Source: Allacma fusca (lineage: Eukaryota > Arthropoda > Collembola > Symphypleona > Sminthuridae). Taken from it: DNA of 64,000 nt. Positions 18,301 to 56,068 of the stretch are shown here, one piece after another. The stretch covers positions 41,712,250-41,776,249 of the forward strand of contig OX359249.1 in assembly GCA_947179485.1 (NCBI GenBank), in the 5' to 3' direction. How positions within the stretch are numbered: the stretch's first letter is position 1; each line of letters begins with the position of its first letter. The notes below the pieces were generated by a model. That model had not been told where the DNA came from, ran no database searches, and saw only the letters and a list, made by a program, of their open reading frames with translations. A program made the translations under genes and the position numbers.

Positions 18301-20747
18301 AATTCGTTCACCTTGTATTCTGCTAGCATCTACTATTGCTAACATTAACAAGGTGGACATGTGATTAACTGCGAAGACCATCTAATTCCGCCCGTTGACG
18401 TAGGTGAGCACGTTTTATTCATGAATTAAAACCCATTCAGTAGAATGAATCGTTGAAATGCAAAGGGAAAAAACAAGTGCACTCCCCACATGGGAAAAAT
18501 TGAATGAAAACGTGAAAATAAGAGTGGAAGTTAAATTTTGTCATGTAATGCCCAAACAACAATAAATAATTTACAGGGAAATAATGAAAGGCATGTCATT
18601 TGCTACTGTATTGTTTCTAAGGATCACTTGCAGAGTTGTGTAAACCATTTAAAACTATGTTAGTGGAAGCAGGAAAACGGTTTTGCTGATTGTTCCTCTA
18701 CAAATGTACAGGACATCTGATGCTCTTCAGGGTACCTCACCGTATAATATTATTTTACACATAAAGTGGAAACAAGACAATGATATGCAGCCACAGTTAC
18801 AGTACTCATTTGTTACATACAGATCCGAGACCCATACAACAACACATAAATCAGTATAAATATTCTGAAAGTTGAGAATTTAAGGTAAATCAGTGTTTCA
18901 CTAACGAAATAATAATTTCCTCAATCTCCTCCAGGTATCAAGCCATGGGAAAATTTTAAAAAAATAATTATAATACTTATTCGTTGTAATTAAATCCGAT
19001 ACAATAATTACTGTAGTAATTATTAACATTGCAGTACTATGGAAAAAATTGATGGTACTTGTCGTGATACTAGGATCAGGTTTTTAGAGTGTAGCCAACG
19101 AGTGAAAATAAAATGTAGAAGAGGCACATCGTATGTACTTGACTATATTGCAATGTGATATGTGATGAGTCTCATCTTAAAATGTGATGAACTGGGCCAT
19201 TTTTGTGTGAATATTGGCGAATAAACTGGTAGGGTAAAGACCACACAGATTTCGAGTTGGCGTTGCACGAGACTTCATTGACGAGTGAGAAGCTGAAGGG
19301 GAGGATTGTTCAGGGGAAGTTCTTCGAGCTCAGAGACCAATGGGTTGGTGATGTTGCTGAAGAATAGTCGATGGTAGCCGCCCTTTACACGAGAAACTCT
19401 TGGAGTAGATAACGTTGAAAAATTTTCGTTTCAACCCAAACAGAATCAGTAAGGCATTATCCTGTGTTGCTGAAGGAGCAGACAGTGGACTGTCGTCATT
19501 TTGGAGGAAAAAGTGTCGACAAAAATTTGGTCTCCTTTGAAATCATCTCCTATAGAAATGTGGATAGTATATTTTATTTAAATCGTGCAAGATTTCTGTT
19601 TCAACTCGTTAAATTGGTCAGTTTTAAGCTTACTTCGCCCCAACTGAGAACTTGTTCGAACCTGGGAAAATTACCAAGTGATCCCTGCAAAGTGTACCTT
19701 TTTGGATTCGACCTTAACATTTTTTAACTAGTTTGATTGCAAAAATTAATATTTTTGGAAATAAATTCTTTTTGCATCGGAAATTCCTTGGAAAGATTCA
19801 ATCAATCTGGAGGCAACCGACATGACAGTCACCAATATCGCAATGATGCGACCATGCTTTGCGGGATATCCGTTTCAAGGTGCAATATTTTAAACATTCC
19901 TCTGTTCAAAAAATTCAATTCTGCTGGAAATTCCTTTACCTATTTCGGAGTTTATGCATGTAATTATTTGTCAAATCGTTTAACTACTAGAGGTCATGTG
20001 AAGTATTACATGCTTTGGGAATAATACAAACTTATTAGTGAACCTTGTTTATTTTTACGATTGCTCTATTTGTACGACAGAACGATGGTAGATTTTTTTG
20101 AATGCGCTGGAGCTGGAAGACGAAGGGAAAGTATTCTTTTCCGAGGTAGAATCGTAAACTTAATTGGGGGGTTGTAAATTATTCTAAGGGCTGACAAATC
20201 AGTTGAAGATAGATATTTTTTCTGACTCAAGTCGTAAATACTCTTTGTGATACTTTTCCTTTATGTATTGTGGAGAAGTGGAAGTATATGTTTCCCGTAC
20301 ATTTACGCGGATTATTACTCTATACGCGGCTCACATCCCGCTGTATTTATGTTCACTTCCAAACGGTATAGAAAGATGTCAAAGGTTTTATACAATTCGT
20401 TTTATTTACTGCTTCAACTTCACCATTGTTTCTTGACAAGTGTAAATTTCCGTGTAATCACTTTTCTTGCTTCTGTTGTTCAACTTTACCGATTCTTCAA
20501 ATGACAGCTGATTTACAGCACAATTATCGTCATCATTTGTGTTGTCGACTAACTTTTCATGGGATCATTATAGTGTGTCCTTAAATTCAGTAGAAAATAT
20601 AACATAAATATCTCAACCGTAGTAACTGTACCAAGTTCCCACCAATGTCACTCCTCGTGAGACTTGTACACTTGAACAAAAAGAACGGTCAGTTATCATG
20701 ATTCATAATATTTCCTAATTGAGATTATTCAAACCTGAATACATTAG
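15355..20747. other. Non-coding stretch upstream of Pax3/7
   Basis: No convincing exon. The missing first coding exon of Pax3/7 should lie here or further upstream. It must end in phase 1 so that its last G joins GT CAA GGT at 20748. I searched for a short ATG exon with a good donor and found none that stands out. The plus strand at 16,860-17,450 is G-rich in patches. Short ORFs at 15,985-16,209 (minus), 16,199-16,381 (plus), 19,464-19,727 and 19,737-20,024 (plus) have no family resemblance. Confidence 0.35.
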
Positions 20748-23700
20748 GTCAAGGTCGGGTCAATCAATTGGGCGGAGTTTTTATAAATGGTCGTCCCTTA
20801 CCAAATCACATAAGACTTAAAATCGTGGAAATGGCAGCTGCCGGTGTACGACCTTGCGTCATTTCTCGTCAACTCCGAGTTTCACACGGATGCGTTTCGA
20901 AAATCTTGAACCGATATCAAGAAACTGGTAGCATTCGTCCCGGTGTTATTGGAGGTAGCAAACCCAGAGTTGCTACCCCGGAAGTTGAGAAACGTATTGA
21001 AGAGTACAAGAGAGAAAATCCTGGGATATTCTCTTGGGAAATAAGAGACAGGTAAGAGGACTTTATGAATTACTGCTGCCTGAGTAAAGTCAGGTTCTTT
21101 ATCCAATGCAGAGCGCTTCTGAGTCGTCGGTAGGAAGGATTTGCTATTTCCTGCCCTATAGGCTTGCACAGCTGAAAGCATCAGAGATTAGGGCTTGCTT
21201 AATAGTTTCCTCCGTTTATGTATAATTTGTTAATATTGAAAATTAACTCGGTGTGACATTTACAGTACCCTTCGAATATGTTGTAGGTTGATAAAAGAAG
21301 GACTTTGCGAGAGAACTAATGCCCCATCAGTGAGTGCAATTTCTAGATTGCTACGGGGTCGTGAGACTGATTCCGATGACAAGAAATTCATTGACGGTAA
21401 GGATTTCAATTTTTGAGAACCATGTGGCTTAAAACTTTGTTCCTCCTCAGTTTCTACCTTCCATTACGTTAGACACATAAATCAAAGGGACCCAACGCAT
21501 CTCAATAAATCATGTTTACCACGCAGCCGAATTATTATTACTGCCAGGAGCAAGGAAACCAACCCACCACCAAAGTCTGATTTTAAAACAATAATTTCTC
21601 CAAGCCTGAATGACACGAGCTTACTTTTTAGAAGCCAGTATCCACACACGGAGTTCAGAGTAAAAGTGACAGATAGGAATTAACTTAATTTCTTTCCCGG
21701 GTGAGTCTAGACCAGACTGAGGGAAAAACTTGAGAAATTGATAGGCAGGAGGCGGAGTTAGGATTTTACGTAATAGAATCTCTGGGTTGAAAACGGACGG
21801 AGACTTATTATAGTTACTAAAGTAGTCCCTTTGTATCCGACGATAGTTCATTTCTCATTGTCCAAACATACTTATCAAGTCACATTTATCATGTTGCACT
21901 GGGGTTCGCTAGAAAGTAGATACATACCAACAACCACCTGTAGGTACTGTCGCATTTGGGATCCGATGTAATCCTTGGTATTGTAATAATTTCTTTGTCC
22001 TTCAATGGAAATGTGCCGTAATGCTCTATTGAATAAGGCCAACAATTTTTTTAGCGAAAGGAAAAGTGTACAAACATTTATGTATGTATATGACTGCAAC
22101 AACCAAGTTGTCACTGACAGTATGGGATCATGTTTGCAACCACCAGTGCTTACATACATGGATAGGAGGCCAGACTTTACAAATTGACTCCTACACTGGT
22201 ATTTTCTCTTTCACATCAGCCAGCGCAATGTTACAAGATTGAATTTGAAAATTAATGCCTTCCTCTTTTGATTCAATTAATTCGAGCTCATTTATTCTTT
22301 TATTATCATCCATTGGAAACTCATGCCTTTCAACTAAATGCAATTTGTGATTCATGGCTGCCTATTTTTCACCCCCAACAGTTCTATTTTTCTGCTCAAT
22401 TTATATCTCTCATCACGTTGTTGTAGTCAGCTATTAGTGTATTCATTTCAGAATTTATCTGTTTTTCAAAGCTACTGATAATTCTCCTGTTTTTGTCTGG
22501 GTAAGATTTTTTCAGTGAAATTTTATAAATGACAAAAAATATGTTGGTAAAGATGGAAAATGTAATCAAGCTATTGAGTCCTAGAAAAACTAGTAAAACT
22601 GCTCCGTCTTCCCCAGATACAAACTTTTTGTATAATTTACTGAACAATGTCGTCCCTATCTTCTATTCTATTACCTACGGGTGCATATGTACACCTTTTT
22701 TTACTCCAGACTGTAAGATGTTGCAATTTTAACCCAAATCCCTGCACAGAATCCTCACTATATGTTACTCTTTTATAAGCATTCTATATTCATTGGCATG
22801 AATGGTGGCAAATTGAATTAAACGTGCTATTTGAAAACACATTGTTATAATGGAGATGATGTGGTATTGGTTTTTTTTACTACTGCCGAGATTCGACAGT
22901 ACTTACAATCTGAATGCACATGTGTTTGTTTTTACTAAACTTTACGCGTGGTTTTTGTTCTCAAATGCTGTGTTGTGTCGGATTTGAGTTAAATGTCTTT
23001 AATGTTTAACATATGCATGTTAAGTGAGGCAGTGAGTAATCGGGGTTTAATGGTTATTAGGTGGCGGAGATAAGAGTAGCGAGGCAAGTGATTGTGAGTC
23101 TGAGCCAGGCATTGCCTTAAAAAGAAAACAACGTCGAAGTCGAACAACGTTCACAGCTCATCAACTGGATGAATTGGAGAAGGCTTTTGAACGCACTCAG
23201 TATCCCGACATTTACACACGGGAAGAACTGGCTCAAAGAACCAAACTAACTGAAGCTCGTATTCAGGTAAATCATCCTTCCATAATATTCTTTGTATTTT
23301 CCGCTCGTATCAGAAACCACAACTATTATTGTTATGCTGCACAGAGTTTCTTTTATTAAAAGCACCCATCGTATTCTCTCTGTATGCTTGCATGCATTTG
23401 CAATTTTGGCAAACATCACGATTGATGCAATTGGACAGAAGTTAGTTAAACAGCAGTTTAGCATTCACATATTTTTGTCTTTTTTGCATTAGCAATGTCT
23501 GAAAAAGCTTTAGGTGCCAGCTCAGCACTGCATGGACCCTTCATAAGCAAGAGAGCAAAAAAGCTTTGTGGGTTTGGAATGCTTTCTTTCATTCGAAATA
23601 ATATTCAAGGATTTAAAACATTTATTAATTTGAAGAAGCTTCAAAGCTTCTGTATTATTTGTAAAAATTTTGTACTGGTATTTGACTGTTTGTTTTTACA

Positions 23701-41054: not shown

Positions 41055-41225
41055 ATATCGTCGGTGAAGAGGCAAAATGATCTAGGTGCATAATCGATTA
41101 GAATCAAAATGATCTACATAACTTTTTCCCTAAAGGCAAAATGAACTGGGTGCAAGCCTCTTTAAAAGCAAACTGATCTACATACAATTTTCCTTAAAAG
41201 CAAAATGATCTAAGTGCTGGTCAAT
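41055..41225 (+). repeat. Left arm: five 32-base tandem units
   Basis: Cores AAAATGATCT or close variants recur at an exact 32-base spacing. Units one, three, four and five begin with an (A/G)GCAAAA type lead, unit two with ATCAAAA. Units one, three and five continue into a GTGC-type trailer. The second and fourth units (CTACATA trailers) resemble each other more than their neighbours, hinting at duplication of a dimer. Confidence 0.85.
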
Positions 41226-41760
41226 TTTTTTTTGTGAGAAAAATAGCATCTGTAAGGAGGACACGTGGCTTATAAGGGCTAACCATGACTGTAATTGACC
41301 TAGGGTTGTGGGTTAATATTGTCTGAAGGGTTTGCTATTACTAAGGATCATTCCGGCAACTAAAGTTAATTTCACTTATTGGATCTAATACATTTTTAGT
41401 TACTAAAACTGCAACATTCGTTTATTTTAAAATCGACGAATTAAAAGACGAATCAAAATCACAGTAAGCTCATGTGTTAGTGTGCACATTGAATTGGTTT
41501 TCCCTTTAATAATTCTCAACCTGGAGTTTTTTCAAATCGTATTTTACGATCATCACCATTATCATAACATTCGGAATCATTTTCAAATGCTAAATCATAA
41601 TTGACAACTTTTTTTTTCAATGTTACTGAAAGAAAGAAATGGAGGCATTGGGGAATTAAATGCATGTATAAAAGATTTTGAATACCTCTTGGAATACCTC
41701 GCATTTTTGTACACCGGCATTAGAATGTGTTTACTTATATTGTTTTTATTATAATTTGTA

Positions 41761-41919
41761 TCTAGATCATTTTGCTTTTAGGAAAAGCTGCATGTAGATC
41801 ATTTTGCTTTTAAAATTCAATGCAAGTAGATCATTTTGCCTTTAGTGAAACTGCAAGTAGATCATTTTGATTCTAATCGATCATGCACGTAGATCATTTT
41901 GCCTCTTCACCGACGATAT
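41761..41919 (-). repeat. Right arm: five inverted 32-base units
   Basis: The inverted core AGATCATTTT recurs at 41764, 41796, 41828, 41859 and 41891, a period of 32 with one 31-base step. The outermost two units match the left arm best (ATTCTAATCGAT is the inverse of ATCGATTAGAAT), so arm ends are conserved more than arm interiors. Confidence 0.85.
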
Positions 41920-43928: not shown

Positions 43929-44914
43929 TCAGTCTGACACTGACATTGCAGCTTGTTGCTGCCCTCCAAACGGAACAACTAGATCTTCGCTGTGAACTAC
44001 ACGGATGGAATACAAAGCCGCCTCAACTTCATTCATCGCCCACTCCATCTGTTCCATTGTTTAAAAATAATTACCATGTTACTAACGTCAATATCCTCTT
44101 AAACAAATTAAAGAGCTACTTTATGAATTTGCTAGCATCAATTCATACACATATTTACTTACAAGGTCAATGTCTTCTTGTGAAATCAGTGGAGCTCCAA
44201 GATGCTTTTCAGGATTTGGTGTGTCACCAAGTAATAAATTCGGTGGACGTAGGAGAGTAGGTGACAGCGTCTGAACTTTTGCAAGGTAATGCCTAGTTCT
44301 TTCCTGGAACTCTCTCTGGTCCAAGGAATGGGAACCTGAACCAGAAACATCAATCATGGCCGATGCAGTTTCTTGAAGGATCTTCGCCAACTCATCTTCT
44401 TGGCCCCTCTGAGGATGCGAACCCGAAGAATTTCCTACTACACGGGAATCACTACCAAGCCAAATAAAATTCATCATTACTAATTTTAATCCACCTCCAC
44501 ATAACTCTCAAAAAACCAGCAGAATACATTTCCACTTCGAAAACTTTACCATCGCCACCAACTCATAATATTTATAAAAGGAAGAACCCATCACCAAAAA
44601 TAAACAAGGGTATGTACGCATCAATATAAAAAACATTTAATCTTGTATTTACCTCTGCGGTACCCTCACCACTGGTGTATTGCTCACAGGGTCCTGAAGC
44701 AATCGTGCTCGCTCACTGCTATCAACGCCCTAAAATGCAAAGATCAACGTTTACAAATTAAACGCCCACTCAATATCCCCAAAATTTCCAAACAATAATT
44801 TACAAAGTATTCTCACAAAAACAAAAGCCGCAAGTTGTAAAATAAAAAAAATATAAAACTTCCACAACTTACCTGTGAATCGTCATCATCATTGCAGCTG
44901 AAGCAGCAACCCAT
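43929..44914 (-). CDS. LAMTOR1: LAMTOR1 (p18), lipid-anchored Ragulator scaffold subunit
   Basis: Scaffold of the pentameric Ragulator complex, which tethers Rag GTPases and so mTORC1 to the lysosome surface. Four exons: 44914-44873, 44729-44653, 44451-44163 and 44048-43929, with phases agreeing, 175 residues (human LAMTOR1 has 161). The start MGCCFSC provides Gly2 for myristoylation and Cys3/Cys4 for palmitoylation, as in the family, followed by an acidic run (NDDDD). The ERARLLQDP segment is the usual conserved N-terminal motif. ELAKILQETASAMIDVS matches the family core, and the last exon, ALYSIRVVHSEDLVVPF, matches the family C-terminus. A second in-frame ATG lies only six bases upstream at 44920; initiation there would give MKMGCC and block myristoylation, so 44914 is the preferred start. 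Confidence 0.93.
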
Positions 44915-47900: not shown

Positions 47901-48001
47901 TTCAAGTCATTCTATTAGTGGCTTCGGTTGTGTGAAGTCGGTTTTCACATAACTTTGGTGTACGTGTGTAAAGAGCTTTTAAATTTTATTTTGAAATCAT
48001 C
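44921..48001. promoter_or_regulatory. Divergent promoter interval of LAMTOR1 and CPD
   Basis: About 3.1 kb between the divergent start codons. On the minus strand five TCAGT pentamers (arthropod initiator core) cluster at 45,511-45,562, a plausible LAMTOR1 start zone. The plus strand turns strongly G+T-rich from about 46,140 to 47,300 (for example ttggaggagggagagagggc), as expected for a leader or first intron of CPD, which suggests transcription starting near 46.1 kb and a spliced 5' UTR. A 157-codon minus-strand ORF at 47,353-47,826 overlaps this zone but shows no family features. The promoter positions are inference. Confidence 0.35.
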
Positions 48002-51000
48002 ATGCTACTTTCGACTGGATTTGTATTTGTCACGCTGCTGGTTCAGCTGACAGTTACAGCATCCGAGGCAGATGATATTTGGTGGCAAAAGTTGTCCACT
48101 TCCTATCCTCGTTATGAAGACACAACTAGAATCATCCGTGATATGCAGACCAAATTCAGTAATTTGGTCAAAGTGTACTCAATTGGGAAGTCCACACAAG
48201 GGAAGGAGATGTGGGTTATTCAGATTTCGAATAACGTTACCAGCGGCAGGACTTTGCTCAAGCCAATGGTTAAAATCGTTGCTAATATGCATGGAGATGA
48301 GACTCTTGGACGGCAACTAATGCTCATGTTATCATCCTATTTACTGCGTAAATTTTCACAAAATGATGCAAGGTTAGTGAACCAATTTCTTAAAAATATG
48401 GCAGTAGTTTTGAAAGATGGACTAAAATTTGGTTTGAATGTTCTTAGATATGGTTGATGATAATACTGAAGTATTTTATGATTATTATATTCATAAATAT
48501 ATTTAATTATATAATAATGTTCTTTCAGAATTGTATCTTTGCTCAATTCGACTGATATCCATTTAATGCCGTCCATGAACCCGGATGGGTATGAAAAAGC
48601 TGTAGAAGGGATTTGTTCGCCTAATCCAGATCAAGTTGGCCGACATAATGGAAATAACGTAGACTTAAACCGAAATTTTCCAGATCAGTTTGTCACACGA
48701 AAGGATGATGGTGAGGGACTTGTGGCTGGTCGTCAAGTAGAGACCTTAAACGTAATGAAATGGATTGTGACAAATCCGTTTGTTCTGTCGGCTAATCTTC
48801 ATGCTGGTTCATTAGTTGCCAGCTACCCCTACGATTCCGTTTCACTTTATATAGAGTGAGTCATTTTTTCCAATGAAAGAATTATTATCACCAATATTCC
48901 CATTTACTTAAATATTACTTCCTTACCCTAAAATCCTTCCTTTACCTTGCCATTCTAGTATTATTTGAATTATTATAGTTCCCGTTAATTGTGTTGTATG
49001 TATGCCTTTTAATGTAGAAGACATGCAGATTATAAAGGAGCTAACGTGCCTAGTCTTTCTCCCGATAATACTGTCTTTGTCTATCTGGCTAAGTTGTACT
49101 CGCAGGCCCATAAGACCATGCATGATTCCAACAACTGTGGCGATAATTTTCCAGATGGGATTACAAATGGTGCTGAGTGGTATAATGTTAGAGGTACGAT
49201 TTTTCTCATTGCCAGCAGTAATTTGTGCTTAGTGTAAAGACTCTATGATACATTTTAGCATATCTAAGTGTATTTGGCTTATGTTTTTAGGTGGTATGCA
49301 GGATTTTAACTACTTCCATTCGAATTGTTTCGAAATAACTTTGGAGCTATCCTGTTGCAAGTTTCCCAACGCAGCTCAAATCCCTACCGAATGGGAAAAC
49401 AATAAAGAAGCTTTGTTGCAGTATTTAGAGGCGGTTAATACTGGCGTTCGTGGTGTTGTCGTAGGAGCAGATGGTCACCCGATAGAGGATGCTAAAATCG
49501 AAGTTTATGGGATCAGTCACAATGTTACTTCTACGGATAGAGGAGAGTATTGGAGACTACTTGCCCCTGGAAATTACAAGATCAAAGCCAGTGCTCTGAG
49601 GTATGAATGCGTTATTTCTACATAGAAATTTCCATGACCTATATACCGAAAATCTCATAAATGCTGCCTGAAAATATAATTTACATTTTCTTATCTTCAG
49701 TTTGCTCTTTGTTGCACCCCATATTGTATCATATATTACTGTATTATAGGCATGAGGATGCTGACTGGGAAGAAATATCTGTAAATAGTACGGGCCAACC
49801 AACGATCGTAAATTTCAAGCTTAAGTCTCATGATATGGTATTCAGCAAATCTACGTTGAGTGCAACACCGGGTAATCTTATTTTAGTTTTGGTCCTCATT
49901 TTAATATTTTCGCCATCGCAATTGTTTTAACCTAGTTATTATTAGAGTTGTAGTTATGTAGAAGCCAGGTATGTACCATAATTAGTTTTAATATTTTAAG
50001 CTAATCAAATGTATATTTAAAGGCGGCTGTTTCCTACCTATTTGAGTTGCATTATGTAGAAATTGTTTGTTTTCAGCGTTAAATTAGAGAACTTTCAGCT
50101 CAGCTAATTATGAATCTCATGCTGTTGCTGTATCGAATCTCAGCCTTACGCAGCTTTTTACAATGTGTCACCTTGCGCATTTAAATGATTATATACGCCA
50201 GATATTATGAAGAGAATGATTTGTAAAATATAAAGTGACCTTAATAGAATTATTGTGGGAAGTTTATAATATAAGATCAATATAATATAAGGGAAGTCAT
50301 AAGATCTGTTTCACACGTAGGGAAAATATATTGTGAAAAATAAAATAAAGCTGCAGTATTATTACCGATTTTATTACATCATGAGGAATCTTGTATAGTT
50401 TAGTGAGAAGAAGGCTTCGAGATTTTAAATGTATCTGTAAGTGTAAAAGTACCGTCAAATATTTTAACAAATAAAATGTATTGTTGAAATTATATGTATC
50501 GTAAGCCTTCGAACCTGAGATGAAACATCATAACTATGAGCAACTGGAAGTACTCATGAAAAACATTAGTCAACAGTATCCTGATATAACAAGACTTTAC
50601 ACTGCGGGCACAAGCGTTGAAGGAAGACAGCTGTATGTAATTGAAATTTCAGATAATCCCGGGCAACATGAGTTGGGTGGGTTCACATAAAAAAAATTGC
50701 ATTGCTTTTCAACGCTTCCTAAATCCATAGAACACATTTTTTTTCATATCACACACGGTACCCCCCCCCCCATGCCGCAAAAATATTATATTGCCAGTGT
50801 TATGTTCTGGTAATGTATTCATAACATCTATTATATATGCATTTGCAGGAGAACCTGAATTCAAGTATGTTGGGAACATGCATGGAAACGAAGTAGTGGG
50901 TAGGGAAATGCTTCTCATGCTAATTCAGCACCTTTGTCATTTCTACAAGAAAGATACAACTATTACCGACCTAATTGACAACACAAGAATTCATATCATG

Positions 51001-54000
51001 CCATCCATGAATCCCGATGGATACGAACGATCTAGTCAAGGTATGCAGAGTATTTTCTGTAGTCGGTTGAATAAGTAATTAATTATACTCCGTAATGATG
51101 ATAAAGCAATAAGTATGCAAACATTGCTTTGGTCACCCGACAATTTTATTGTCAATGTAATCTTTTCTACTACACAGGTGATGTACAAGGTGTGATTGGA
51201 CGAGCAAATGCGCATCAGATTGATTTAAACCGTAATTTTCCTGGTCGATTCGATAGTCAAAGTGATCAAGCTGAAGCAATGAGGTATGGCCCAGAAAACT
51301 TAGTAACACAACCGGAAACGGCTGCTATGATGAACTGGATGTCTCAGATTCCTTTTGTACTTTCTGCAAATTTGCATGGAGGCTCACTTGTAGCTAATTA
51401 CCCCTTTGATGATACTCCTTCCGGTGACTCAGAGTATGCACCTAGTGAGGACAATGCTATTTTCCGTGCGCTGGCCCTGACGTATTCCAACGTGAGTCAA
51501 GTCAATAAATTATTAGCACCGTTACAAACACTACTCATTCATTGGTACTTAAAATCTTATTTGCGTCTGTCAGGCTCATAAAACAATGTGGAAAGGATAT
51601 CCGTGCCCTTCTATTATCAAAGATGAAAAATTTGATCATGGCATCACTAATGGGGCTCAGTGGTATGTTGTCAGTGGTGGTATGCAAGACTGGAATTACT
51701 TGAATACCAATTGCTTTGAAATCACTCTTGAGCTGGGTTGTGTAAAATTTCCCTTCGAAGATCAGCTATCCAAGTATTGGGACGACAACAAAAATGCACT
51801 CATAGAATACATAAAACAGGTTCGCTTCATACAAAATAAATACATAGTTAGCTAAAGCTTACCTCAACAACTGTTAGTTGCGATTGTGGTGCTTGCCTTT
51901 TGCATAGTTTTACTAATAAAAATATTGGTGCTATATAGGTACATACCGGAGTTAAAGGATTCGTACTGGATGAAAATCGGAATCTCTTAGGTCACAGTAA
52001 AATCACAGTGGAGAACATCAACCATCCAGTTTTTGCTGCATCCGGAGGAGATTTCTGGCGTTTGCTTATTCCGGGAAGTTACAACATAACAGCTCACTCC
52101 AACGGGTAAATACCTGTACATATAAAATTTTATAATACAAATATTGTATTTAATTAATTATTACGAAGATGATTTATTTGGTGTTACTTGTACTTGTTTA
52201 GCTACGTAAGCCAGACGCAGCATGTAGTTGTAAAAAAAAATGAGCGGGCCGTTCAAGTAAATTTCACATTAGAGACCATGCCAGCTAGGGACTGGTCATT
52301 GAAGAACGACTTCGGGATCTTGACCAGTATTGATACAGAAAATTTCTCTTCCATTGATGATGCAAGTTTGGATTTGCTGTCGATGGAAAGCATGAATTTC
52401 TTTGATCACCAACACGTGAACGGTCTCCATCATTTAGTCATAACAGATCAAGTTAGTTTCTTTGTATTCTCCCTTGATACTCATGCAGTGATTGTTTCAG
52501 TTGGCCGTAGTTTAAAATTACAATTTTATCAGGTGGGTTCACCAGATGATCGCAAGGTTCACATAGGTCTCATGGGCAGCTTTCTTGGAGCTGGGGGAAA
52601 CGAACTTTTAATAAGACTGTGCCGCCACCTAGCTATGGGAACTCAAAAAAATGACCCTATCGTCTTAAATGTTTTAAAACAAGCAGCCCTGCATGTATTT
52701 TTTACTGATGCTCCTCATGACAAAGGTAAACTGACTAGTTGTACTCGGTCATTGTTGTCACAAAAGCTTCCATTTTCGGTGGATGTTTATGTTTATAATG
52801 TAAGTACTCTTCTTTGGGCAGATAAATGCTTCGCAGGAAATAAGGATGGTGCTGCAATAATGCAAGGGGTGGTTCAATCGATTTCTACAGCGTTGAAATC
52901 TATGCATGTGGATCTTATGATTGCATTTTCATCCGGAGGAAAATTTGTTAGGTAATTACCGAGTAATATAATATTATTTATTAATATTATAATAAAAGAA
53001 TAACTTGACAAAGCCGTGTTAAGTTTAAAAATGGGATATACATTCATGTTATTACATAGTGCATCCGGAAATGTCCAGTCCGTACATGAGGGTATTCAAG
53101 AAATATTCAAATCCGTGGGCACTATTGCGTGTAAATCAAGTTCGACGACTCAAGCTATGACTCAGTTTGCTTTGAATGAAGCAAAACTTGAGAAATTGGT
53201 AAGTGCTCACGTTTTACTGTTGCCAAAATTTTATTCAACCAGTAGAATGCATCCGTCGGCTGGTCGTTCACTCGGCTAAAATAAACGTACACTTAATTTT
53301 AATTTATCTCGTGCAATAGTTGAGATAATTAACCAACTAGGTAGGGACCTTGCGGTGTTTCAATGCTAAATTAAAGGTAGTAGTGAAGCCGCCCGAAGTT
53401 AGTGAATTTTCTCACCATTGCAAGATAAATGAAAATCAAGATTACGTTAGCCCAGTGTTACGTTCGTTTGCAGAATGGATGGACTAAAGATATGTAATAA
53501 AATAGAATATCAGACATCAAACTGCAAAGATATCCATATCCTGCCTTTTAATATACTTTTAACCGTAACTAATACTGCCTTTATCCCTAAAATATAAAGT
53601 TTTCCCTATACTAAACCAATAATTTTATAATAGTGAAGAAACATAGTTTATTTTTCGCAGGTTTCTTTGGGGTTATTTTGTTGCGATTACCCTGATCCAT
53701 CAGATATTACTAAAGTGTATGTAGAGCACCTGGACCACATCTTAAACGTTCTCCAACTTTCTGCACAAGGTGAATTATCGGGCAGTACACGCCTCGTTAA
53801 GCATATTACACATGTTCCTCCCTTTCAAAGACAATTTTTAATCCACTATATTTTGGGATATTAGGATTGAGCGGTCAGCTTTTCGACGAAAACAGTCATT
53901 TCATTAGAGAAGCTAATGTACAAGTTCTTACTTCAAGTGGAAAATATGAACCTGTTCGGATTAGTTTGAACGATGGATATTTCATTCATTTGCTAAATCA

Positions 54001-56068
54001 CGGGAAACACGAATTACTAATCTCTTCTGCTGGTTTCCAACCTCAAAGAATACCTTTCGAAGTAACAACGGGCTCAATGACCACGCTACATATTACATTA
54101 AAGAGAGGCTCTGGAGGAGAGACTGTCACGGAAAGGTTATCCACGGCAAGCACAGAAACAAATGCAGAATACTTTTATTACCCACGCTTGAGTTTTGAAG
54201 AACTAAAAAAGAAAAATACAGATCTGCTAGATGTTTATAGGTATATTTAATTTTACAGAATGTGTATTGTTAATTTCTTTCGAATGACTCAGCAATTATG
54301 ATTCCGTTTCCAATAGTTTTGAACGGAGCAGTGGAGAAATCCTGGGACTTAGAGTGGGTTACCAGCACTGGCGGAAGATAGCTGTTGTATTTGATGAGTT
54401 TTCTTTGTCCCCCTCATCTTTGCTAACTTGGACTAGGAGTTACTTGCAGTTATTTAGCAATCCGAAGATTAGTGGCGTGCAATTTAATTTTCTTCTAAAA
54501 GATGGAAACGGTACAATGTTCAATAATTCTTGATATGTTTTATATTACGAATTGAAGTTTGCTATAAATTTCCATTATTTTGTCTGACAGATACTCTGGG
54601 TGGTCTTGATTTTAGAACCGTTGAAAGTTGGATACGTCGAAACAGATTCCCTATAGTTTTCCATATATTTTGTTCGCCACCGAATCCAAATTTGAAAACT
54701 TCATTGTTGGCTCAGTTGCCCCAGATTGAAAAAGCGGTAATCTAGATTAAATTTGTTTTTATACGGTCAAATAAATAATAAATTTGCAATAACCTTCTTA
54801 AATTTTGTATTTAGATGTTTGGAGACATTTACGACATAACATTGAAGCTTGTTCACAGTACGAGATCAGCAGACAGTTGTTCATCACTGACTAGAACATC
54901 TTCATATTCCTACAATTTGGCAGTAATAGTTTCTTTCCTTTATTTTGCTATTATATGAATTTGGGCGGCATAAATTGAGCAAGTCTGATTCTAATAAGCC
55001 TTGGTTATTTGTTAGTCGTTACATGATTCGACCCAAACTTGGAGTTTTCCTTTGAATCTCCAATGCTGCACAAACCACTCAGTGGTAGACAACAATTTTA
55101 TAGACGTCCTCAATTCGCTGAATAAGACATCTGTGCATGGGATTCAAGGTAAGGTGTCCGGGTCGGAGTACCATTTTATATAAATTGAATTGAATGAATT
55201 ATTAAAGAACAATTGCGATTATAACTTAGGAATCGTGGCGTCAACTCATCATGTTCCCATCCAGAATGCTGAATTAGTGTTCGGAGCTAATGAAACCACT
55301 ACTTGGACAGATGATTTAGGTCATTTCGAGAAACCTCTGCCTGAAGGAACTTATAATGTTTCGGTGAGGATTACCAGTATTAAATTAACAAACTAATTAA
55401 TCCAGTAATTATATTGTGTCGTAGTGGTAATCATTCCTTTTGTAATTTAAAAAACACGTTTATAGGTGAAAGTAGACGGGTATAAACTATCATACAAGAC
55501 AGTCAATGTTTCCAGAACTAATTATGTTCAGATTTTATTCGCATTGCAAAAAGATGAGACTGTTTGGGGTCTGCCGCGGTTGGTTTTTGTAATAGTTATT
55601 GGTGAGTATGAATCCTCCTATAACACTACCTTTAGGTCACAAACTATTAATCACAGTTTGTGGGTAATTACAACGAGTTAATTGTACTTTGTAGCCCTGG
55701 TCGCACTGTGTATCGTGGCATTGTGTTCACTTATTGTGGCGGTTTGTCGCCGGAGGAGAACTAGACCTACCAACAATTACGGATTTTTTCAAATGAATAA
55801 TCACCTTATTTTTGAGGACGAAGATGAACAGCTTTTTTCTGCCAAGGGGAAAACAATAGTTGGTAAGTGTTTATAATGTAAAAATTCCACTTTTATGGAA
55901 TTGTCCAGCAATAAACGTCTCGGTATTCATTTATGTGAGCATTATTTGTGTACATTTTCACACGTAGAAAGTCAACTAAAGACCACCGATTCTGATGATT
56001 CCGATTGTGAATACACTAACGATATTTTACTGAACTCGGGAATGCGTCAGTGGAGTCGCAACACATAG
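48002..56068 (+). CDS. CPD: Carboxypeptidase D (silver), four-module transmembrane form
   Basis: Golgi/secretory metallocarboxypeptidase removing C-terminal Arg/Lys from processed peptides. 22 exons with agreeing phases, 1641 residues: 48002-48372, 48529-48855, 49018-49193, 49291-49600, 49750-49871, 50506-50676, 50849-51040, 51178-51491, 51574-51819, 51939-52105, 52202-52951, 53024-53198, 53661-53769, 53865-54240, 54317-54510, 54591-54736, 54815-54922, 55016-55148, 55230-55363, 55466-55601, 55695-55862, 55968-56068. A signal peptide leads. Module I has NMHGDE (H97, E100), LNRNFPD, NLHAGS and ITLELSC; module II has NMHGNE, LNRNFPG, NLHGGS and ITLELGC, so both look catalytic. Module III ([12 protein letters not shown]) and a further module IV lack zinc ligands but keep transthyretin-like folds. 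A membrane helix (about 1545-1570) and an acidic tail ([23 protein letters not shown]) end it. The family usually has three modules and about 1400 residues. Weakest border: the acceptor at 53023. Confidence 0.93.
49872..49930 (+). other. Read-through end of a one-module CPD isoform
   Basis: If the exon 5 donor at 49872 is skipped, the frame runs on as [18 protein letters not shown] to a stop at 49928-49930. The product, about 454 residues, would hold module I alone with a C-terminal hydrophobic tail like a GPI-anchor signal or tail anchor. AATAAA pairs lie at 50339-50349. Single-module products are known for Drosophila silver from memory; the hydrophobic tail here is seen directly, and its use is inference. 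Confidence 0.45.
50761..50771 (+). repeat. Homopolymer C tract
   Basis: Eleven consecutive C in CPD intron 6, in otherwise AT-rich DNA. A similar run of about nine C lies near 62,310. No function is visible; such tracts are prone to length error. Confidence 0.7.
53396..53476 (+). repeat. Dispersed repeat, copy A (CPD intron 12)
   Basis: The segment from agttagtgaattttctcac onward aligns, with small gaps, to 60449-60545: both share AGTTAGTGAATTT, CTCAC, ATAAATGAAA, ATCAAG, and a TTACGT-CGT block. It lies in the 462-base intron between CPD exons 12 and 13. Family unknown; no ORF. The two copies are diverged, so the insertion is old. Confidence 0.5.
55863..55915 (+). other. Possible alternative tail end of CPD with intronic poly(A) signal
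   Basis: Failure to use the exon 21 donor adds GKCL and a stop at 55874-55876, with AATAAA at 55910-55915. The product would keep the membrane helix but lose the last 33 residues, including the [15 protein letters not shown] sorting-type cluster. Alternative tails are known for Drosophila CPD from memory. Use here is inference. Confidence 0.4.

Follow-up and report, generated by a model that had tools for sequence, protein, structure and literature searches.

A non-autonomous transposon with inverted arms of five 32-bp units in the springtail Allacma fusca, probably derived from a DUF7869 transposase element

Many MITEs have short terminal inverted repeats (TIRs), and the target site of piggyBac elements is TTAA. 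In the excerpts available of the papers cited here, Sola transposons are described with a 4-bp target site duplication (TSD) and TIRs of 11 to 1124 bp, and Mutator-like elements with a TSD of 7–12 bp (PMC10741241), while the 4-bp TSD of Sola2 is stated to be AT-rich (PMC3627910). Galileo is described, likewise in excerpt, as having a 7-bp TSD, with internal tandem repeats in some subfamilies and a proposal of secondary transposase sites (PMC3573991). The hAT elements usually have 8-bp TSDs (PMC12730594, in part), and the tandem subterminal motifs of hAT Buster elements are thought to have roles (PMC4298943, in part).

Chromosome X1 of the springtail Allacma fusca carries a transposon of 857 bp at 41059–41915 of the window, the window being the whole stretch of 64,000 nucleotides that was analysed, and the structure of this element is confirmed. 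With a probability of roughly 0.85, the element belongs to the cut-and-paste DNA transposons, is non-autonomous (MITE-like) and probably arose by internal deletion from a DUF7869 transposase-encoding element of about 5 kb. It is a new family of an ordinary kind of transposon. Its features are given below, where L-numbers (L030, L051 and so on) are fetched stretches of the genome and C1, C8 and C10 are contigs.

41055..41058, no strand: first copy of the TSD (ATAT), from the flanks of 30 copies and the L030 empty site
41059..41915, no strand: non-autonomous TIR transposon, 857 bp, with ends CGTCGGTGAAGAG...CTCTTCACCGACG; boundaries from 30 loci and genome copies
41059..41280, no strand: left-end cassette (arm and about 60 bp), common to L036 and L043, in which the middles are different
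41059..41217, plus strand: left arm, a 13-bp tip and five units; the 13-bp cores start at 41072, 41104, 41136, 41168 and 41200
41281..41692, no strand: middle, 412 bp, apparently non-coding, origin not found
41693..41915, no strand: right-end cassette (arm and about 60 bp), 91% identical over 223 bp to the C10 end (L056)
41763..41915, minus strand: right arm, a 13-bp tip and five units with one 31-bp step
41890-41902, 41858-41870, 41827-41839, 41795-41807 and 41763-41775, minus strand: right-arm cores
41916..41919, no strand: second copy of the TSD (ATAT), from the flanks of 30 copies

The initial annotation had placed a mobile, Foldback-like element at 41055..41919. Its mobility is borne out by the genome copies, the TSDs and an empty site, and the structure of the span stands, but the outer 4 bp on each side are the TSD and the element proper is shorter by these. 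The perfect inverted run at the ends is 30 bp including the ATAT of the TSD, rather than the 19 exactly inverted bases that had been given. The description of a middle free of transposase motifs appears correct: the element is not overlapped by any open frame of at least 110 aa, and tblastn of the partner transposase frames against it gave nothing better than E 0.46. A weak blastn match of 36 bp (81%, E 4e-4) was found between the middle, at 41639–41674, and the transposase frame of L051. Scans of the window for Rfam families and tRNAs found nothing. In appearance the element is a pair of end cassettes, each about 222 bp long, on either side of a 412-bp middle, because similarity to the C10 end and to L036 starts at base 635 and similarity to L043 at base 640; the C1 stretch begins at the cassette start itself and is therefore uninformative on this boundary.

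The core GGCAAAATGATCTA, with up to 2 mismatches, has 10 matches in the 64-kb window where 0.90 are expected, all of them within the element, and none of 100 shuffled windows reached this number. A 32-bp periodicity was found in both arms by Tandem Repeats Finder and by a repeat finder. Steps between the core starts are 32, 32, 32 and 32 bp in the left arm and 32, 31, 32 and 32 bp in the right, when a weak half-unit match, present at arm position 30 of all the arms, is disregarded; this agrees with the earlier claim of five units in each arm with one 31-base step. Left-arm cores start at positions 14, 46, 78, 110 and 142 in the window element, in C8 and in L051; right-arm cores start at 14, 46, 77, 109 and 141 in the window element, in C8 and in C10, with three degenerate core matches past the fifth unit of the C8 right arm set aside. 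The register of the first five units, including the one 31-bp step, is kept in both the window/C10 and the C8 lineages. Paired in register, the two arms of the window element match at 97% over the outer 63 nt and at 81% over the inner 88 nt, and it was rightly noted that the ends of the arms match better than their middles.

A unit motif of GCAAAATGRWMTA-NN-TGCA was derived from 25 units of five arms, in which the core columns have a mean information content of 1.71 bits and the other columns 0.85. At core position 9, all 15 units of the window/C10 lineage have A, whereas 9 of the 10 C8 units have G; no probability is attached to this contrast, the units of one arm not being independent. Since the number and spacing of the units are kept in both lineages, the five-unit arms look like a fixed, putatively transposase-binding architecture.

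The genome searched comprises 392,743,791 bases in 91 contigs. The A. fusca assembly is described, in the excerpt available, as 392.8 Mb in 95 scaffolds, with six pseudomolecules of 81.9, 75.61, 66.08, 58.81, 55.59 (X1) and 48.07 (X2) Mb (PMC10427803). For the 865-bp stretch made up of the element and its two TSD copies, near full-length matches number at least 40, from the 40 of 1,177 candidates that were scored. Genome-wide, the 21-bp end with up to 1 mismatch is present at 2,088 places (1,051 + 1,037) and the reversed 21-mer, as a control, at none; the search with the end sequence that had been proposed thus finds the element far from single-copy. In 1,028 (528 + 500) of the 2,088 ends position 6 is not G, and some ends are unpaired. 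The total would allow for no more than about a thousand elements with two ends, of which roughly half would be of the GG type found in the window. Two-ended copies are found on all six chromosomes.

The two TSD copies are identical in each of the 30 best-matching copies, being ATAT in 28, ATAC in one and ATAA in one. A further 14 two-ended copies have identical pairs in 11 cases, two of which are AAAT, and a one-base difference in 3 (L036, L046 and L050). A 2-bp TA duplication is ruled out, as ATAC and ATAA are each repeated on both sides. When the flanks of L030 are joined, they align over the junction to L045, which has a single ATAT there, with 238 of 258 columns identical. Of 43 such joined flanks compared with 362 kb of sequence, this one alone gave a paralogous empty site, the kind of evidence for a target duplication that the initial annotation had proposed to look for. 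The identical TSD pairs and the single-ATAT empty site give good support for insertion by cut-and-paste with a 4-bp stagger.

Divergence from the consensus in the 30 best-matching copies is 0.12–1.86% with a median of 0.35%, and 0.23% in the window copy, in a sample that is biased to copies like the window's and in which variants are under-sampled. Older layers exist, since the pieces of ten other copies align at about 70–99%. An apparent second subfamily ("B") was rejected, being the same interior in the opposite orientation, with 17 of 30 copies flipped. The copies of 2.1–2.6 kb (L037, L039 and L049) were also rejected as coding copies, since no long frame stands out in L039 or L049, and their extra DNA is taken as putative nested inserts. 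Two copies, L036 and L043, have the same end cassettes as the window element and other middles. Part of the L043 middle matches DNA adjoining the C10 end, which suggests separate internal-deletion events.

All 30 best-matching copies have five units per arm, when one extra left-arm match and the weak matches to AT-rich sequence interior to the right arm are set aside. When nine other copies were read by core pattern match, L048 was complete and eight were without, or had displaced, at least one core. Alignment of 22 arms from 12 other copies revealed exact 32-bp deletions in four arms, one each of L040 (with two such deletions), L042, L045 and L047, a 59-bp deletion in one L045 arm and no case of whole-unit (32-bp) gain; L031–L050 were mostly picked for odd or unpaired ends, and these deletion counts are not frequencies. 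No arm gap of 8 bp or more is present in L036, L039, L043, L044 or L048, and any missing cores of these copies are therefore point changes or small shifts. In L046 both arms, and in L037 and L049 a single arm, are disturbed, with smaller gaps. Whole-unit loss, presumably by unequal exchange or slippage, is real, and free growth of the arms is not supported. The proposal that arms grow and shrink holds for shrinkage by whole units, with no gain among the arms aligned; the picture of free-running arrays is not supported, since the arms have five units in every best-matching copy, these being the copies most like the window's, and the same register in the other lineage.

Copies of 76–81 bp contain only the two tips, each with a single unit. 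Five of these were read, and the TSD is identical in four and has one mismatch in the fifth. The mini-end pattern is present at 97 + 93 places in the genome, with at least 21 77-bp pairs exact at both ends among the 100 places listed, on all six chromosomes. These 77-bp copies have an ATGA core and, as the sixth base of the tip, T, so that tip type and core type are not strictly linked. The dispersal of identical 77-bp one-unit copies suggests that four of the five units may be dispensable for movement, and, as both one-unit copies and unit-loss copies exist, the full array would not be strictly needed. The 326-bp copy in L047 is nearly both C8-type ends joined, minus one left-arm unit. Over at least C8:5718836-5760817, ends of mini elements are spaced at about 3,496 bp, in what looks like a tandem array of units of about 3.5 kb with one mini element each.

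A search with PF25273 (DUF7869) identified 71 places in the A. fusca genome, with open frames of up to about 600 aa, and no place in 14 control genomes. One of these lies 3.6 kb inward of an unpaired end, at C1:7345213 (L051), where there is a five-unit left arm with 81% identity to that of the window element over 158 bp. The longest frame of L051, at 351 aa, matches PF25273 (E 1.2e-9), which is its only match above cut-off in Pfam, and NCBIfam gave nothing; the next longest, an upstream frame of 117 aa, has no Pfam match. A PDB search of the transposase frame gave a single weak match (E 0.074). Candidate acidic residues are visible in this frame. The right end of the L051 element was not found within the 7 kb fetched.

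The best complete candidate for a transposase-bearing element is on C8. It is 5,080 bp long, with exact 43-bp inverted ends at C8:30540493 (plus strand) and C8:30545572 (minus strand) and ATAT on both sides, as read from 270 bp of each end. Between these ends, C8:30543443-30544447 is 98% identical to the L051 frame, is open over 466 aa and is itself a DUF7869 match. The arms of C8 and L051 are about 79–82% like those of the window element on the same side. A third frame, at C10:53040624-53041643, is 69% identical to the L051 frame with one stop inside the match, and is about 1.1 kb from an end (L056) whose outer 59 bp are the same as those of the window element's right end; a left end of the C10 element was looked for in one stretch (L057) and not found. 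The frame at C1:57638687-57639703, 68% identical to that of L051 and without a stop, is followed by the same right arm lacking its tip (L055; 88% over 179 bp). The expected partner sharing the ends was found in the form of relatives with a transposase-like DUF7869 frame, on C8 between the ends and on C10 close to one. A search for a non-G base after ATCTA gave 10 places, with no partner among them. Other DUF7869-related frames of about 600–900 aa (such as those at C10:51586647, C10:64981669 and C8:17998656) are 24–38% like the partner and are putatively further transposon lineages.

Internal deletion of a DUF7869 transposon of about 5 kb, with the middle replaced or captured, would have generated the 857-bp element. 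The DUF7869 transposase would cut with a 4-bp stagger and act in trans on the short copies. Each unit (GCAAAATGRWMTA-NN-TGCA), spaced about three helical turns from the next, may be a transposase binding site. The tip and outermost unit would suffice for movement, while the other four units may raise affinity or help to assemble the two ends. Exchange between the arms may keep the outer 60 bp or so of both alike. Nearly every unit is ATGA in one lineage versus ATGG in the sister lineage, and a tentative extension, itself on the doubtful side, is that this DUF7869 group has fixed ten-site ends (five per arm) in which the transposase and all of its sites would shift recognition together.

The window element resembles MITEs in being short, non-coding and multicopy and in having ends common with a coding element. 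It has no transposase, has TIRs and a TSD, and shares its ends with transposase-bearing elements, at the similarities to C10, C8 and L051 given above. Its arms, however, exceed the short TIRs of many MITEs in length and regularity. It is like hAT Buster elements in its tandem subterminal motifs, but these have another transposase and usually an 8-bp TSD, and in the window element the repeats themselves form the inverted arms. Mutator-like elements are ruled out by the 4-bp TSD, and piggyBac by a TSD of ATAT, or rarely ATAC, ATAA or AAAT.

Assignment of the window element to the Sola (Sola2) superfamily is the somewhat favoured choice among named groups, and would refine rather than oppose its reading as an internal-deletion derivative. 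The likeness is in the 4-bp AT-rich TSD (ATAT, AAAT), the terminal inverted repeats and an element size of a few kb, although TSDs of ATAC and ATAA do not fit AWWT, and tandem five-unit arms such as those found here go unmentioned in the available excerpts of the Sola descriptions compared. TSD and TIR length point to a Sola-like family, and it is not filed here as a Sola member; DUF7869 (PF25273) is putatively Sola-like. The Foldback/Galileo type of the initial annotation, in which tandem-array arms expand and contract by unequal exchange, is by comparison very improbable. The window element has in common with these Drosophila elements the long inverted arms built of tandem units, and the loss of whole units in some copies, together with the 59-bp deletion, slightly raises the odds. 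Against this, Galileo has a TSD of 7 bp, a P-type transposase and strongly variable arm length, while the element here has a TSD of 4 bp, a partner frame that matches DUF7869, and five units in the best copies and in a second lineage, with whole-unit gain absent from the arms aligned. Membership, and with it the proposed kinship, fails on the TSD and on the transposase, PF25273 being the only match above cut-off for the L051 frame.

The other alternatives concern what moves the family and what the units do. If the DUF7869 gene were only a passenger, another transposase would move the family; the catalytic residues of the DUF7869 frame are candidates, the C8 and C10 elements are known from end sequences and frame matches, and DUF7869 is not mentioned in the papers of the literature searched. 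This is nevertheless improbable, as the DUF7869 frame is by far the longest in L051, is enclosed by the two ends on C8 and close to the end on C10, and belongs to a set of 71 genome places that behave like a transposase family. It is also unlikely, though less so, that the units have some other role, in replication, small-RNA or hairpin formation or host-factor binding, instead of being transposase sites. The one-unit copies, with their mostly identical TSDs and wide recurrence, make four of the five units look dispensable and so speak for such a role; the conserved unit register speaks against it, as does the lineage split of A versus G at position 9, which would be expected if the transposase had changed recognition. 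The internal-deletion derivative of a DUF7869 element remains the preferred reading.

DUF7869, a Pfam domain of unknown function, is in this way linked with a 4-bp TSD, with complete transposon ends and with short copies that are young. Natural length variants of 77, about 326, 857 and 5,080 bp, with one, four or five units per arm, allow the question to be asked of what subterminal site arrays do. The joint shift of ten sites would, if true, provide a natural series of a transposase and many binding sites co-evolving. No description of this family was among the top matches listed in searches of the openly accessible literature.

The surroundings of the element in the window include an exon with a PAX paired-box domain at 20723–21052 on the plus strand (PF00292, E 1.9e-62) and zinc carboxypeptidase exons at 47972–54247, also on the plus strand, with Peptidase_M14 in four frames and a carboxypeptidase regulatory domain in a fifth. 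The latter belong to one or more genes, possibly a multi-domain carboxypeptidase D. The Pax and carboxypeptidase exons agree with animal DNA. A frame at 44124–44507 on the minus strand has a weak LAMTOR match (PF15454; 26.7 versus a cut-off of 25 bits). Elsewhere in the genome, full-length copies of the element at C8:8798051, 8842354, 8882105 and 8921871 are spaced 40–44 kb apart, suggesting a large tandem segmental duplication.
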